Source: Bradyrhizobium iriomotense (lineage in GTDB: Bacteria > Pseudomonadota > Alphaproteobacteria > Rhizobiales > Xanthobacteraceae). From it: 64,000 bases of DNA. Shown one piece after another: positions 9,948 to 17,190 of the stretch. The stretch is from the NCBI RefSeq assembly GCF_018130765.1, contig NZ_JAFCJZ010000004.1, positions 310,001-374,000 on the forward strand. The letters run 5' to 3'. Position 1 is the stretch's first letter, and the number at the start of each line of letters is the position of its first letter. The notes under the pieces were generated by a model. The model did no database searches and was not told the DNA's origin. It saw nothing but the letters and a program-made list of their open reading frames with translations. A program made the translations under genes and the position numbers.

Positions 9948-10901
9948 GTGACGAGATTTGTGAATGTGGCGGCCGGCCAGCTTGGCCCGATTGCGCGGCG
10001 TGAGACCAGGACCGAGGTCGTGGCGCGCTTGACGGCGTTGATGCGCCAGGCGAAGGCCAACGGCTGCGACCTGATCGTCTATCCCGAGCTCGCGCTGACC
10101 ACCTTCTTTCCGCGCTGGTATTTCGAGGATCAGGCCGAGATCGACAGCTTTTTCGAGCGCGAGATGCCGGGGCCGGAGACGCGAGCCCTGTTCGATCTCG
10201 CCCGCGAGCTCGGCATCGGATTTCACCTCGGCTATGCCGAGCTGACGGTCGAGGCCGGCGACGTCAGGCGCTACAATACCTCCATTCTCGTCGACAAGAG
10301 CGGTGCGATCGTTGCGAAGTACCGCAAGGTCCATCTGCCCGGCCATGCCGAGCACGAGCCGTGGCGCAAATTCCAGCATCTGGAGAAGCGCTATTTCGAG
10401 CCCGGCAGCGGCTTTGGCGTCGTCGAAGCGTTCGGCGGTATGATGGGAATGGCGATCTGCAATGACCGCCGCTGGAGCGAGACCTATCGCGTGATGGGCC
10501 TGCAGGGCGTCGAGATGGTGATGATCGGCTACAACACGCCGGTGCACAATCCGCCCGCGCCGGAGCATGACGACCTCTCGTTGTTCCACAATCACCTGGT
10601 GATGCAGGCCGGCGCCTATCAGAACGGCACCTTCGTGGTCGGCGTCGCCAAGGCCGGCGTCGAGGAGGGTGTCGACCATATCGGCGGCAGCTGCATCATC
10701 GCGCCCTCCGGCGAGATCATCGCGCGATGCACGACCAAGGGCGACGAGCTCGCGCTCGCCCGCTGCGATCTCGACCTCTGCAACTCCTACAAGCGCACGA
10801 CATTCAATTTCGACGTTCACCGCCAGCCGCGGGCCTATGGGATGATCGTGGAGCGGAAGGGCGTGGCGACGATGGCGGATGGGTCGGCGGTGAAGAGGTG
10901 A
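9948..10901 (+). CDS. N-carbamoyl-D-amino acid hydrolase (nitrilase superfamily)
   Basis: This is a 317-residue carbon-nitrogen hydrolase. The nitrilase catalytic triad is visible: Glu in YPELALT, Lys in YRKVHLPG and Cys in AICNDRRW. The closest family is the N-carbamoyl-D-amino acid amidohydrolases, which release D-amino acid, CO2 and ammonia; the FFPRWYF and PWRKFQHLEKRYFEPG segments are typical of it. I chose GTG at 9948 because AAGGA stands 6 bases upstream and homologues start at this point (TRFVNVAAGQLGPI). The open frame reaches further upstream without a start signal. It appears to be a single-gene unit, with no hydantoinase next to it. Confidence 0.85.
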   Translation: MTRFVNVAAGQLGPIARRETRTEVVARLTALMRQAKANGCDLIVYPELALTTFFPRWYFEDQAEIDSFFEREMPGPETRALFDLARELGIGFHLGYAELTVEAGDVRRYNTSILVDKSGAIVAKYRKVHLPGHAEHEPWRKFQHLEKRYFEPGSGFGVVEAFGGMMGMAICNDRRWSETYRVMGLQGVEMVMIGYNTPVHNPPAPEHDDLSLFHNHLVMQAGAYQNGTFVVGVAKAGVEEGVDHIGGSCIIAPSGEIIARCTTKGDELALARCDLDLCNSYKRTTFNFDVHRQPRAYGMIVERKGVATMADGSAVKR

Positions 10902-10908
10902 GGCTCTT

Positions 10909-10985
10909 GTAGCCCGGGTGAGCGCAGCGACACCCGGGAATCAACTCGCAAAGATCCCGGATGCCGCTACGCTCATCCGGGCTAC
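10909..10985. repeat. Palindromic intergenic repeat (GTAGCCCGG type)
   Basis: The left arm starts GTAGCCCGGGTGAGCGCAGC and the right arm ends GCTCATCCGGGCTAC, forming a long imperfect hairpin of 77 bases. This motif resembles REP-like elements scattered in Bradyrhizobium and Rhodopseudomonas genomes (recognition from memory). Confidence 0.65.
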
Positions 10986-11059
10986 GGGACCGGGTGTGTC
11001 GCCGCCTGTCAACCCGCTGCTGCGAAAATATTCCGCTTTACCGAAATTCGGATTTGTCG

Positions 11060-11577
11060 TACGTATCGCCCGTCCCGGCTCATCCTTGAGGGGCGATCAT
11101 GTGGTCGTCATTTTCGCGAGTCGGGCTTGCGGTGGACGCGGCAGCGTCGGCACGAAAGGTTAAGGGCAGGGCGGGTAGTCCCTGTGAGCTCGTAACCACG
11201 TGCAGACGAGCGGCGCTGAAAGTTCGTCTCGCCAACATTTTTCCCGCGATGTCGACAGCGCGGGAAAACCCTGTGGCGGCCGGCGGATACGCGTACGGCA
11301 AAACCGTGTGGTCCTGGCCGTCGTTGCTACGGTCAAGCCTTTCGCGAAGATGCGCGCGAGCCCAACCGGGCAGACGGCATCGTCAATTCGCGAGGTGAGG
11401 GAGGCCAGAAGGAATTCGGCTCCCGGGAGAGCACGGCATAAGCCGTCCGACCATCGCGCAGGGAAGGCCGAGTGTTAGGCTTCACCTGTATGCTGCTGTG
11501 CGGTTCTTTTGCGCTATATCTTCGCGCAGTGGACCGCGGGTGCCAGGTCAGCACCCGGCCTTCCCTGCGCCCTCTTG
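11060..11577 (-). repeat. Probable multicopy non-coding repeat, about 0.5 kb
   Basis: This gene-free stretch has stops in the plausible frames and no ribosome sites, yet it matches my memory of a roughly 500-base element seen many times in Bradyrhizobium genomes. Its marks are GACCACATGATCGCCCC at one end and a duplicated GGCCTTCCCTGCGC near 11468 and 11568. Short frames inside it are often mis-annotated as genes. Copy number cannot be checked here. Confidence 0.4.
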
Positions 11578-11692
11578 GATCGAGAGGGTGGAGAGATCAA
11601 GCAAAGCTCGGGCGAGATGAGCCGCGAGAAGGCGAAGGCGTGTCTGTAAGTTGAAATGCAAGCCGAAAGAGCGCGCTGTTGCTTCATACTCC

Positions 11693-11772
11693 GTCATTGC
11701 GAGCGCAGCGAAGCAATCCAGAGCCTTTCCGCGGAGGGATTCTGGATTGCTTCGCTGTGCTCGCAATGATGA
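11693..11772. repeat. Palindromic repeat (CATTGCGAGCGCAGCGAAGC type)
   Basis: The arms are GTCATTGCGAGC...GAAGCAATCC at the left and GGATTGCTTCGC...GCTCGCAATGA at the right, making an 80-base hairpin. It is a REP-like element in front of a second palindromic element. Confidence 0.65.
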
Positions 11773-11799
11773 CTTGGAAAGAGCGTGCGCCACACTCCG

Positions 11800-11944
11800 C
11801 TCTCGTGCCCCGGACGCAGCGCAGCGTCTCTTCGACGATGCGCTGCAGAGCCGGGGCCCACATTTCCAAGGGCGCTCGCGCAGTCTGGGTCCCGGCTCGG
11901 CGCCGCAACGCTTGCGCATTGCTGCTTGTCCGGGACACGAGAGG
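11800..11944. repeat. Palindromic repeat (CTCTCGTGCCCCGGAC type)
   Basis: CTCTCGTGCCCCGGAC at 11800-11815 pairs with GTCCGGGACACGAGAG at 11929-11944. Inner GC-rich segments pair further. It fills the space before the tetR gene and carries no gene. Confidence 0.6.
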
Positions 11945-11977
11945 GGCCGGACCCACAATCACAACCACGTGTCTTTA

Positions 11978-11999
11978 TTCGGGAACGATCATTCCCTAT
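11978..11999. promoter_or_regulatory. Operator of the TetR regulator (tetR copy)
   Basis: The palindrome GGGAACGATCATTCCC (11981-11996) lies 12 bases before the tetR start. The same 20-base sequence TAGGGAATGATCGTTCCCGA recurs in opposite orientation before the MFS gene. Position suggests autorepression. Confidence 0.75.
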
Positions 12000-12008
12000 T
12001 ATCCCGCA

Positions 12009-12629
12009 ATGCAAAAAGCCGCCCGCCGATCGCAAGCTGTCGCCCGTCCGCCCGGTCGTCCCCGGGAGTTCGACATGGACACCGCGCTTGACCGCGCCCT
12101 TCGGGTGTTTCGCGAGCGCGGCTATCACGCGACCTCGATCGGGGATCTCACTGCCGCGATGCGGCTTGCCACCGGCAGCGTCTACAAGGCGTTTGCCGAC
12201 AAGCATGCCGTATTCCTCGCCGCCTTCGAGCGCTACGCCGGCTTGCGCCAGGAGCAGACCCGCAGCGCCGCGGCGCGCGGGGAGAATGGCCGCGAGCGGC
12301 TGCGCCACGTGCTCTTATCCTATGTCGAACATTCCCAGGGCATCGAGGGACGGCGCGGCTGCCTTGTGGTCGGCAGCGCCGTTGAATTGTCGGCGGTCGA
12401 TCCCGTGATCCGTGCGCGTGTCGACGCGCAGCTCAAGACCAATGAAGACTTCATCGCCGGCCTCATTCGCGAGGGCCAGGCCGACGGCTCGATTCCGGGC
12501 CATGTCGATGCCGACGACACCGCGCGGCTGATGATCTGCATCACGCAGGGCATGCGCGTCGTCGGCAAGGCGCGCCTCCCGCTCGACGGGGCCCGCCTCG
12601 TCGGCGTCGCGATGAAGCTGCTCGCCTGA
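12009..12629 (+). CDS. TetR-family transcriptional repressor
   Basis: The 206-residue product has an N-terminal TetR helix-turn-helix (residues about 15-65, FDMDTALDRALRVFRERGYHAT and TGSVYKAFADKHAVF) and an alpha-helical ligand domain. The ATG at 12009 is taken because the helix-turn-helix follows directly; the frame continues upstream into repeat DNA. It is followed at 53 bases by an MFS exporter gene. Matching 16-bp operators precede both genes, so it most likely represses itself and the transporter until a ligand binds. The ligand is unknown. Confidence 0.85.
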   Translation: MQKAARRSQAVARPPGRPREFDMDTALDRALRVFRERGYHATSIGDLTAAMRLATGSVYKAFADKHAVFLAAFERYAGLRQEQTRSAAARGENGRERLRHVLLSYVEHSQGIEGRRGCLVVGSAVELSAVDPVIRARVDAQLKTNEDFIAGLIREGQADGSIPGHVDADDTARLMICITQGMRVVGKARLPLDGARLVGVAMKLLA

Positions 12630-12641
12630 ATTTATGTCCTA

Positions 12642-12664
12642 TTAGGGAATGATCGTTCCCGATA
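12642..12664. promoter_or_regulatory. Operator of the TetR regulator (MFS copy)
   Basis: GGGAATGATCGTTCCC at 12645-12660 is the same palindrome found before tetR, in inverse orientation. It sits 22 bases before the MFS start, where a bound repressor would block transcription. Confidence 0.75.
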
Positions 12665-12681
12665 TATCGGAGACTGCGTAA

Positions 12682-13875
12682 ATGACCATGAATGCCACGA
12701 TCGAGACCGCACCCGAGCCGGATGCGGTGTCGCAGCGCCTGACCTTCGTGCTTGCCGCGGCCTGTGGCATGGTCGCCGCCAACCTCTATTACGCGCAGCC
12801 GCTGATCGCCCCGATCAGCGCCGCGCTCGGCCTCTCGCATGCGGCGGCGGGGCTGATCGTGACCATGACCCAGATCGGCTATGGCGTGGGGCTGCTCTTC
12901 ATCGTGCCGCTCGGCGACCTCGTCGAGAACCGCGCGCTGATCTGCTCCGTCATCACGCTCGGCGCCGCCGCACTGCTCGCTGCCGCCTTCGCCACCCATG
13001 CGCTGCCGTTCCTGGTGGCCGCGCTGTTCATCGGCCTCGGCTCGGTCGCGGTGCAGATCATCATCCCCTATGCCGCACATCTGGCGCCCGAGGCGATCCG
13101 CGGCCGCGTCGTCGGCAACGTCTCGACCGGCCTGATGCTCGGCATCATGCTGGCGCGCCCGGTGTCGAGCTTCGTCACCGCGGCCTCATCGTGGCACGCG
13201 GTGTTCTTCGCCTCCGCCGCGCTGATGGTCGTGCTCGCGGCCGCGCTCTGGATGTCGCTGCCGAAGCGCAAGCCCGTCGCGCGCATGCACTACGGGACGC
13301 TGCTGCTGTCGATGCCGCATCTGGCGCTGACCACGCCGCTGCTCCGGCGCCGCGCGCTCTACCAGGCGAGCCTGTTCAGTTGCTTCACCCTGTTCTGGAC
13401 GGTGGCGCCGCTCCAGCTCGCCGCCGCGTTCGGCTTCTCCCAGCGCGGCATCGCGCTGTTCGCCTTGGCTGGCGTCGCCGGCGTGTTTGCAGCCCCGATC
13501 GCGGGCCGGCTCGCCGATCGCGGCCATAGCCGTATCGCGACGCTGGTTGCCATGCTGCTCGCGGCTGCGGGCTTCCTTGCGACCTATCTCGGCGCACCCG
13601 GTTCGATGCTGAACCTCGCCTGTCTGGTCGTGGCCGCCATTGCCATCGATATCGGTGTGCAGGGCAACGTCGTGCTCGGCTTCCGCGCCATCTTTGCGCT
13701 CGGGCATGAGCATCGCAGCCGCCTCAACGGCCTCTATATGGCGACATTCTTCGCGGCCGGCGCCGCCGGCTCCGCGATCGGCGCCTGGGCCTTCGCGCAA
13801 GGCGGCTGGACGCTGGCCTCGGCCATTGGCCTCGCTCTGCTCGTCGCGGGCCTGCTCTATGCGGCCACTGAATAG
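12682..13875 (+). CDS. MFS transporter, probable drug/metabolite exporter
   Basis: The 397-residue protein has about 12 membrane segments. The first loop shows GMVAANLYYAQPLIAPISAALG and the motif-A region GVGLLFIVPLGDLVENRALI, a pattern of DHA-type proton-driven exporters. ATG at 12682 is preceded by GGAGA; an in-frame ATG lies two codons later. It is under the TetR operator and is presumably the regulated resistance or efflux gene. Substrate unknown. Confidence 0.8.
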   Translation: MTMNATIETAPEPDAVSQRLTFVLAAACGMVAANLYYAQPLIAPISAALGLSHAAAGLIVTMTQIGYGVGLLFIVPLGDLVENRALICSVITLGAAALLAAAFATHALPFLVAALFIGLGSVAVQIIIPYAAHLAPEAIRGRVVGNVSTGLMLGIMLARPVSSFVTAASSWHAVFFASAALMVVLAAALWMSLPKRKPVARMHYGTLLLSMPHLALTTPLLRRRALYQASLFSCFTLFWTVAPLQLAAAFGFSQRGIALFALAGVAGVFAAPIAGRLADRGHSRIATLVAMLLAAAGFLATYLGAPGSMLNLACLVVAAIAIDIGVQGNVVLGFRAIFALGHEHRSRLNGLYMATFFAAGAAGSAIGAWAFAQGGWTLASAIGLALLVAGLLYAATE

Positions 13876-14044
13876 TTACCGGGACTGCTCATTGTGCAAT
13901 GCGCGCGTTTACCAAGCCGCGGACGAGAAGCCATCCGGTGCCTGACGAATCCTTCTGTGCCGCAATTTCCATCTCGCGGTTCGGTTGCAGTTGTAGTACT
14001 TTCGTCGCAATCGGACCTGGTTAACGGGCGGCAGGGGGAGGCTG

Positions 14045-14464
14045 ATGAGGCGTGCGGGGCTGTTTGGCGTACCGCGGGTACGGCCATGGTCGTGGCAGGC
14101 GTTTCTGCTGGGACTCGTCATCGTCGCAGTATCGGCCCTGCTTCAGGGCATCTGCGTCGCGCTCGGCGCAAAGCTTTATTTCGCGGCGTTCGTGCCCAGC
14201 CTGTTCGTGCTCGCGCTCGTCGCCGGCGTGCCTGCGGCGACATTCGCCGCGCTGCTCACCGTTCCGCTGGTGTGGTGGGCGTTCATACCGCCGTTCTTCG
14301 AGTTCACCCCGCTGACCAGCGCAAACGCGGATTCCATCAACCTGTTCTGCCTGCTCGCTGTGCTCCTGATCGGCCTTGCCGATCTCTGCCGCGAGACGAT
14401 GGCCATCATCAGCCGCGGCGGGCTCAAGCCTTCGGGCAAGAGCGCGGCAACGAATTCGCAATAA
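14045..14464 (+). CDS. DUF4118-like membrane protein
   Basis: The 139-residue protein has three to four hydrophobic segments (FLLGLVIVAVSALLQGICVAL, FAAFVPSLFVLALVAG, FAALLTVPLVWWAF, LFCLLAVLLIGLADL). The layout resembles the DUF4118 membrane module found in KdpD-type and related sensor kinases, but here it stands alone without a kinase domain. A strong site (GGGGGAGG) precedes the ATG. Function unknown. Confidence 0.6.
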   Translation: MRRAGLFGVPRVRPWSWQAFLLGLVIVAVSALLQGICVALGAKLYFAAFVPSLFVLALVAGVPAATFAALLTVPLVWWAFIPPFFEFTPLTSANADSINLFCLLAVLLIGLADLCRETMAIISRGGLKPSGKSAATNSQ

Positions 14465-14602
14465 ATCGGCGTTGCGCGGGCGTGCGCGTTGCGCACGCGC
14501 AACAGTCCGGCAACCATGCGCGAGCTTGCCGCGCGCCGCTAACTTTTCGAAAAAGATTTGGCCGCAATTTCTCTCCCGGGAATGACGAGGGAGTTTTCGG
14601 AC

Positions 14603-15054: not shown

Positions 15055-16032
15055 CTATTGCCCGCTGAGCTCGGGCACGACGGGCAGATAGTTCGCCCCC
15101 TCCGAACCAAGAAAATCGAACATCGCCTGCGCCGGCGGCAGCAGCACCTTGTCGCTGCGGCGGATCACATACCACTGGCGGACGATCGGCAGGCCGGCGA
15201 CATCGAGCACGATGAGCCGGCCCTCGGTGAGCTCATGCGCGACCGTGTGGGCCGAGATGAAGGCGATGCCGAGCCCGGCGATCACCGCCTGCTTGATGGT
15301 CTCGTTGCTGCTCATCTCCATGCCGATGATCGGCTCGAGGTCCGACTTCTGGAACATGCCCTCCATCAGCGTCCGCGTGCCCGAGCCGGGCTCGCGGGTG
15401 AGGAAGGTCTCGTGCACGAGATCGGTCAGGCTGAGACCGGAATCCTTCTCCAGCCAGTGCCCCTTGCGCGCGACGATCACGTGCGGATTGCGTCCGAGCT
15501 GACGGACGTCGACGCTGACGTCGGCCGGTGGCCGACCCATCACCGCGAAATCGAGGTCGTAGCCGTGCATGGCTTCGCGGATCTCCTCGCGATTGCCGAT
15601 GGTGAGCTTGATCTCGATCTTGGGATGCCGCTTCGAGAACGCCGCGATCGCATGCGGCACGAAATATTTCGCGGTCGAGACCGCGCCGAGCTGCACCGTG
15701 CCGCCGGTCCGCCCCGCCAGCAGGTCGAGCGCGCCCTGGCAATCCATGATCGCGGCTTCGACCCGCTCGGCCAGCGCCAGCACCTCCTTGCCCGCCTCCG
15801 TCAGCAGCATGCCGTCGCCGGTCCGCTGCACCAGCGGCAGGCCGGCGAGGTCCTGAAGCTGCCGGAGCTGCTGGGTCACGGCCGGCTGCGTCAGCCCGAG
15901 ATGGCCGGAGGCCGCGGTCACGCTGCCCTTGGCCGAGAGCGCCGCGAGCGAGCGCAGCTGCCGGATCGTCAGATGCCGGAGCTGGGCCGCCGCATGGCCG
16001 GGGCCATTATAAGAAAATTCTTTGGCGCTCAT
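15055..16032 (-). CDS. cbbR: LysR-type regulator of the Calvin cycle operon
   Basis: The 325-residue protein has an N-terminal winged helix-turn-helix (residues about 20-80, TIRQLRSLAALSAKGSVTAA and TQPAVTQQLRQLQ) and a LysR effector-binding domain (VQLGAVSTAKYFVPHAIAAF, QAVIAGLGIAFISAHTVAHE). It is divergent from cbbF with 90 bases between, the standard position of CbbR. CbbR senses metabolites such as RuBP, ATP or NADPH in other bacteria and activates the cbb operon. Ligand here is not shown by the sequence. Confidence 0.92.
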   Translation of the reverse strand: MSAKEFSYNGPGHAAAQLRHLTIRQLRSLAALSAKGSVTAASGHLGLTQPAVTQQLRQLQDLAGLPLVQRTGDGMLLTEAGKEVLALAERVEAAIMDCQGALDLLAGRTGGTVQLGAVSTAKYFVPHAIAAFSKRHPKIEIKLTIGNREEIREAMHGYDLDFAVMGRPPADVSVDVRQLGRNPHVIVARKGHWLEKDSGLSLTDLVHETFLTREPGSGTRTLMEGMFQKSDLEPIIGMEMSSNETIKQAVIAGLGIAFISAHTVAHELTEGRLIVLDVAGLPIVRQWYVIRRSDKVLLPPAQAMFDFLGSEGANYLPVVPELSGQ

Positions 16033-16057
16033 TATGATTAGAAATTTTCCTTATTAA
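16007..16057. promoter_or_regulatory. Putative CbbR-binding region between cbbR and cbbF
   Basis: An AT-rich imperfect inverted repeat (TTATAAGAAAATTC at 16007-16020 against GAAATTTTCCTTATTAA at 16041-16057) spans the cbbR start. It stands out in GC-rich surroundings and contains LysR-type T-N11-A motifs. LysR regulators typically bind such sites and repress their own gene while activating the divergent operon. Confidence 0.5.
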
Positions 16058-16122
16058 GCCGCCCCTGTCAATCTCCTGATGCCGGGACTGACCGCACCGA
16101 CCTCCAGCGGGGAGGGCAATGG

Positions 16123-17190
16123 ATGCGGCGCCGGCCCAGGGGATGGACGCAGATGACTGGGCAATTCAGGCTGGACGATCACCTTCAACGGTATTCAGAG
16201 ACCGCACCCCACGCGCTGGCGGTGGCGGCCGCAGTCGATGCCATCGCGGCCGCGGCGATCGAGATCGCCGACCTCATCGCCAGCGGCGATCTCGCCGACG
16301 CCTCGGGCCTGACGACGGGCCGCAACAGCGACGGCGATGTCCAGCGCGATCTCGACGTGCAGGCCGATGCGATCCTGCGCCGCTGCCTCGGCAAGCTGCC
16401 GGTCGCGGCACTGGCGTCGGAGGAGATGCGCGAGCCGCAGATCGGCGACCGTGAGGGACGCATCTGCATCGCGATCGATCCGCTCGACGGCTCCTCCAAC
16501 ATCGACATCAACATGACCGTCGGCACGATCTTCTCGATCCTGCCCGCGCCCGACGACCTGTCGCTCGCCTTCCATCAGCGCGGCTCGGCGCAGCTCGCGG
16601 CGGGCTTCGTCACCTACGGGCCCCAGACCTCGCTGGTGCTGACGCTCGGCGACGGCGTCGACATCTTCACGCTCGACCGCAACGCCGGCTGCTTCCGCCT
16701 CGCGCGCAGCGCCGTGCAGATCTCCGAGGCCTGCGAGGAGTTCGCGATCAATGCATCGAACCGCCGGCACTGGGACCCGCCGGTGCGCGCCTTCATCGAC
16801 GAATGCCTTGCCGGCGTCGAGGGGCCCGCCAACCACAATTTCAACATGCGCTGGATCGGCTCGCTGGTCGCGGAAGCCTATCGCATCCTCACCCGCGGCG
16901 GCGTGTTCCTCTATCCCTCGGACGCGCGGCCCGGCTACGGTGACGGCCGCCTGCGCCTCACCTACGAGGCGCACCCGATGGCGATGATCATCGAGCAGGC
17001 CGGCGGCTCGGCCACGACCGGGCGCGAGCGCATCCTCGACCTGTCCGCGCAAAGCCTGCACCAGCGCGTGCCGCTGATCATGGGCTCGAGCAACGAGGTG
17101 CGGCGCGTCGAGGAGCTGCATTGCGATCCGCTGCTGGTTGCCAGCGTGTCGGCGCCGCTGTTCGCGCGGCGCGGATTCTTCCGACTCTGA
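16123..17190 (+). CDS. cbbF: Fructose-1,6-bisphosphatase class I
   Basis: The enzyme dephosphorylates fructose-1,6-bisphosphate (and probably sedoheptulose-1,7-bisphosphate) in RuBP regeneration. Class I marks are the metal site [27 protein letters not shown], the substrate segment [20 protein letters not shown] and [15 protein letters not shown]. The start at 16123 has GGAGGG 6 bases upstream; ATG 16153 ([11 protein letters not shown]) fits the usual N-terminus better and is a real alternative, making 345 residues. First gene of the cbb operon, 13 bases before cbbP. Confidence 0.93.

Follow-up and report, generated by a model that had tools for sequence, protein, structure and literature searches.

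The window analysed here, a stretch of 64,000 nucleotides from Bradyrhizobium iriomotense, contains a regulator gene of the TetR family (12009..12629, plus strand; 206 aa), here called tetR, and, 52 nt behind it, the gene of a transporter of the MFS type (12682..13875, plus strand; 397 aa). The regulator combines a TetR_N domain (PF00440, 40.1 bits against a cut-off of 24) with a TetR_C_13 domain (PF16925, 49.8 bits against a cut-off of 27) and carries two conserved cysteines at residues 118 and 177. The MFS protein matches MFS_1 (PF07690) with 126 bits, falls short of the cut-off in each of the 12 NCBIfam models listed, and finds no solved relative at E 0.001; it is likely an exporter. In the wider surroundings, an inverted repeat at 11692-11775 (cattgcgagcgcagcgaagcaatcc ... 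ggattgcttcgctgtgctcgcaatg) resembles, by eye, a dispersed hairpin element, a small ORF at 14045-14464 holds a lone DUF4118-like stretch (27.5 bits, Pfam cut-off 28.4), and divergent genes for a LysR-type regulator and a fructose-1,6-bisphosphatase occupy 15055-17190, a pair that resembles the start of a Calvin-cycle cluster. Rfam gave no match at 10800-14600.

The sequence-only reading had claimed that a 20-base repeat precedes tetR and, reversed, the MFS gene, and a motif search of the whole window found both exact copies: TAGGGAATGATCGTTCCCGA stands at 11979-11998 on the minus strand (putative operator 1, core 11981-11996) and at 12643-12662 on the plus strand, between the tetR stop and the MFS start (putative operator 2, core 12645-12660). 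As both genes lie on the plus strand, each site directly precedes its own gene. Apart from these two sites, the window holds no match to TAGGGAATGATCGTTCCCGA with up to three mismatches, and 100 dinucleotide shuffles of the window gave a mean of 0.01 matches, with none yielding two. The inverted repeat around tetR extends to 23 nt at 96% identity. The 16-bp palindrome that had been claimed within both copies is present as the core GGGAATGATCGTTCCC, but it is not perfect: seven of its eight pairs form, positions 6 and 11 being unpaired.

The search for the palindrome elsewhere in the genome, which the same reading had proposed, was run over 8.38 Mb in 56 contigs. At up to three mismatches, the consensus TAGGRAAYGATCRTTYCCTA fits both sites, with one mismatch each, and one further place with three (L116); by eye, another TetR-like ORF begins there, and its recognition helix is not the same. 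With the consensus scan returning only the two sites and this one place, the regulon appears local, although weaker sites would escape such a scan. GGAAYGATCRTTCC occurs at both sites and at one third place (L001), which follows the end of a VWA-like ORF and precedes a metallo-beta-lactamase-like ORF (ORFs identified by eye). We rejected a wider regulon by way of this place, which lies within an inverted repeat rich in GC and lacks the TA letters at its flanks. The third genome copy of GGAACGATCGTTCC, at L001:1501-1514, lies in a GC-rich inverted repeat upstream of the metallo-beta-lactamase-like ORF. A literature search found no published match to the operator letters.

How well is this arrangement conserved? 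When 195 Bradyrhizobium genomes were searched at the protein level, 141 gave a match to the regulator at E 1e-30. Taking as orthologs the matches of at least 77% identity, 83 of the 195 genomes have one, the window's own included, and the other 112 do not; the Bradyrhizobium relatives in this main block are 77-94% identical to the window regulator. In all 83 orthologous loci the same MFS gene lies directly downstream of tetR, and each of the two genes is preceded by a degenerate version of the palindrome. Scored against the 12 fixed letters of GGAANGATCNTTCC in 70-nt stretches, the tetR site deviates at 0-3 positions in all 83 orthologs and the MFS site does so in 78, with 4-5 in the remaining five; three or fewer mismatches were reached in 37 of 1660 (upstream) and 43 of 1660 (downstream) mononucleotide shuffles of the same stretches, and in 2 of 665 70-nt windows of tetR coding sequence. 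The orthologs being related by descent, their loci do not amount to 83 independent tests. The two sites of one locus are letter-for-letter identical in only 2 of the 83. The palindrome is thus the conserved feature and the exact identity of the copies is incidental, so that the call of two operators, strongly supported by the presence of both sites in every locus, survives, whereas the exact 20-base match on which it had been based had to be rejected as a signal.

In both sites, the arm facing tetR fits the half-site TAGGRAAYGA better than the other arm does, with mean mismatches of 0.17 vs 1.61 at site 1 and 0.47 vs 0.93 at site 2, an asymmetry that we take to reflect promoter overlap. Two orthologs, L069 and L070, have a further, incomplete half-site (CCTAATGGCCATTCCCT) in the tetR-MFS gap, downstream of operator 2. 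In a second collection (L131-L199), all 69 loci had the MFS gene, and on either side the best stretch carried at most four mismatches; this adds little, as many of its genomes recur from the first set and the stretches scanned, which were not shuffled, were longer. Outside the genus, eight loci from the same family all have the MFS gene, with a site of at most three mismatches upstream in five and downstream in five, and no clear downstream site was seen in the loci of Neorhizobium and Rhizobium that have an MFS gene next to the regulator. A contig labelled Frankia sp. RB7 (L186) carries a tetR 86% identical to that of the window, together with the MFS gene; the record is probably mislabelled or mixed.

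In a predicted tetR promoter, operator 1 takes up the 17-bp spacer. The promoter's -35 hexamer (11974..11979, plus strand) is TTTATT, as in 62 of the 83 orthologs, with TTGATT in 16 and other letters in 5; its -10 hexamer (11997..12002, plus strand) is TATTAT, kept in 68 and replaced in 15. Throughout the orthologs the order is CAC-N6-GTG, two bases, TTKATT, operator, TATTAT, six bases and ATG, within an ungapped conserved block that reaches from about -55 to the tetR ATG, so that the place of operator 1 relative to the ATG is constant; the stretch from -75 to -56 is barely conserved. The -35 hexamer fits TTGACA poorly, and a strict sigma-70 promoter scan of 11600-14100 returned no match, so that it leaves the tetR promoter unreported. 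Shine-Dalgarno-like words precede tetR in 0 of 83 orthologs, against 83 of 83 for the MFS gene (GGAG, AGGA or GAGG before its ATG; GGAG at 12669..12672, plus strand, in the window). Judging from this geometry, we would expect the tetR transcript to start at the A of the ATG (12009) and to be leaderless. A later start at 12075, after GGGAG, is disfavoured: the GRPR stretch upstream of it is kept in all groups compared and in CifR and is hence probably translated, and 12009 is the sole in-frame ATG, GTG or TTG between the operator and this stretch.

Operator 2 lies 13 bp past the tetR stop and 19 bp ahead of the MFS ATG; across the 83 orthologs, 18 to 73 nt separate the end of the 14-bp core from the start codon of the MFS gene. 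Just before it stands a conserved TTGTCA-like block (12631-12642; TATGTC in the window) and just after it a conserved A/T-rich TATATC-like block, flanking the site as the elements of a promoter might. However, these blocks are 21 nt apart, an odd spacing for a promoter, and no hexamer pair with a normal spacer around operator 2 is conserved among the 83 orthologs, so that blocking of read-through may be what operator 2 does. With 52 nt, the intergenic gap is short, the Shine-Dalgarno sequence of the MFS gene sits approximately where a transcript from an operator-2 promoter would begin, and fusions of the gaps in the R. sphaeroides acuR operon had no detectable activity in the portion of the study at hand (PMC3017554). 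These observations favour a single tetR-MFS transcript, with operator 2 lacking a promoter of its own and TetR acting there as a roadblock or at a secondary site; given the conserved flanking blocks, we regard this as rather unlikely, if well short of implausible. A loop between the two sites is conceivable but gains no support.

Does the encoded regulator itself bind these sites? Its relatives fall into four groups by identity to the window regulator: A (77-100%, 83 proteins), B (59-64%, 7, with an MFS gene), C (50-55%, 8) and D (40-44%, 12 fetched among many listed). The gene behind the regulator is a relative of the Burkholderia protein Cfl2, the name given to structure 7jqz (PMC8244358), in 8 of 8 loci of group C, and an EamA transporter in all 12 fetched loci of group D. 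Palindromes near these regulators were sought by symmetry alone in the 151 rows that remained after removal of identical flank pairs; a stretch was counted only if 8 or more of its 10 pairs were symmetric, and base 4 was read from the centre in both arms. With Thr55 and Lys60 in the regulator, base 4 is A/A in 89 of 89 counted sites; it is C/C in 8 of 9 with Arg55/Ala60, G/G in 7 of 11 with Glu55/Lys60, A/A in 5 of 8 with Ser55/Lys60 and A/A in 1 of 2 with Ala55/Lys60, counts that are inflated by near-identical relatives and in which residues 55 and 60 co-vary in group D. Among the exceptions, L128 combines Glu55 with A in both sites, and two Glu55 sites have unlike arms; some symmetric stretches are plainly not operators, such as a GC-rich one in L098. 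Thus, base 4 of each half-site tends to follow residue 55 of the recognition helix.

An operator change that tracks the helix of the linked regulator would be hard to explain unless that regulator binds the sites, and palindromes of the same build stand beside relatives with quite different neighbours (8 of 8 in group C, 12 of 12 fetched in group D). Both points make it very improbable that the repeats are bound by another protein and not by the TetR encoded between them. What speaks for another binder is a second conserved dyad, CAC-N6-GTG (11960..11971, plus strand; element 11955-11973), which lies upstream of the tetR promoter and abuts its -35 hexamer. The dyad is exact in 71 of 83 orthologs and keeps at least five of its six letters in 78; six of the seven group B loci have it too, in roughly the same position. 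One further protein, or more, may therefore act at the locus; we know of no binder of this element. Its sequence in the window, TCACAACCACGTGTC, is found exactly once in the genome, and near-copies, at 8 places vs 10 for the reversed control, are not enriched. Binding of the linked regulator to both sites is, by this indirect evidence, strongly supported. That tetR and its repeats form a small mobile cassette is practically out of the question, for all that a gene between 23-nt inverted repeats of 96% identity has such a look: in all 83 orthologs they hold a constant position next to one and the same MFS gene, the palindrome persists although the two copies are mostly not alike, and the genome holds no further near-consensus copies, the one three-mismatch place excepted.

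Beyond this locus, one chassis, a palindrome in the promoter spacer of a leaderless tetR, may have been re-used within a single repressor lineage for MFS, Cif-like hydrolase and EamA targets, with residue 55, alone or together with residue 60, setting base 4 (Thr or Ser for A, Glu for G, Arg for C). We advance this tentatively, as a proposal somewhat short of an even chance. If true, it would constitute a small, readable recognition code that separates paralogs within one genome. Literature searches on TetR operator coevolution and on leaderless TetR regulators gave no match. The natural variants would allow the match of repressor and operator to be probed in steps of a single residue and a single base.

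What could the regulator sense? Its best solved relative is CifR (E 2e-21 over aligned residues 15-200, with the cysteine of GCLVV aligned); NemR is a weak match (E 8.5e-4), and with 36 bits against 247 the regulator misses the AcuR equivalog cut-off. The best reading is a regulator near CifR and AcuR. Cys118 is present in 110 of 110 compared proteins and Cys177 in 109 of 110; two deposited CifR sequences differ at the position that aligns with Cys118, one having Cys and the other Ser. CifR and the expression of cfl2 are tied to epoxides (PMC8244358, in the part that treats them), AcuR is described as responding to acrylate (PMC3017554), NemR is tied to thiol-reactive compounds and AltR, by way of one cysteine, to thiosulfinates (PMC13178969), and DitR, by way of two cysteines, to diamide (PMC9342713), each as far as the respective account goes. 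In view of the conserved cysteines and of these inducers, an electrophile is our best guess, one that we would put at slightly below even. The lead towards epoxides in particular is weakened by the very low epoxide hydrolase activity given for Cfl2 in the same account (PMC8244358).

Taken together, the same switch before both genes, kept in relatives, very probably marks a self-regulating detoxification unit. In the mechanism that we infer, from binding and the leaderless start to inducer and export, a TetR dimer on operator 1, inside the -35/-10 spacer of its own promoter, would shut tetR, and a dimer on operator 2, just before the MFS gene, would shut the latter. The tetR mRNA, beginning at its own ATG, would keep repressor synthesis low, and the MFS gene would be translated from a normal Shine-Dalgarno sequence. 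A small compound, by our best guess an electrophile sensed by Cys118 (possibly with Cys177), would release the repressor, upon which the transporter, a putative exporter, would be made. We hold such a local, self-regulating repressor-transporter unit of Bradyrhizobium to be highly probable. For nitrogen-fixing soil bacteria, it provides a clearly delimited regulator that has two putative operators and a single target next to it.

As a kind, a TetR-MFS pair under its own control is ordinary and belongs to a familiar type of detoxification unit; the more unusual feature, and a testable one, is the pairing of residue 55 with base 4 across the lineage. The layout of the tetR promoter is likewise a known one, being shared by AcuR of Rhodobacter sphaeroides (acuR-acuI-dddL), a TetR-family autorepressor whose gene is first in line and whose promoter has the hexamers TTGATT and TATTAT, an inverted-repeat operator over the promoter that was proven by mutation, a leaderless AUG start mapped by 5' RACE (here predicted from promoter geometry) and downstream genes with their own Shine-Dalgarno sequences, as set out in the relevant portion of PMC3017554, which names the tetR of Tn1721 as an earlier leaderless case. 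The AcuR operator differs (TAATAGAC-n6-GTCTATTA), as do the downstream genes, acuI and dddL, and that portion describes a single operator and no internal promoter activity. The cif operon of Pseudomonas aeruginosa, controlled by CifR, also includes an MFS gene, and cfl2R of Burkholderia cenocepacia is, by description, codirectional with its target (both in the pertinent part of PMC8244358). However, cifR is divergent from its own operon, which according to that part also carries morB and cif, and, in contrast to both systems, no epoxide hydrolase adjoins the window regulator, its neighbour being the MFS gene. DitR of Stenotrophomonas maltophilia (DitR-MfsBC) is, by description, a TetR-type repressor of MFS genes with one box between -35 and -10 and two cysteines needed for release by diamide, whereas its box is CATAC-n5-GTATG and three boxes lie at one promoter (PMC9342713, so far as its text on DitR extends). 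Finally, NemR and AltR each repress their own gene, have an inverted repeat as operator and rely on a single key cysteine, AltR differing in its operator and its targets, as the corresponding passages of PMC13178969 have it.
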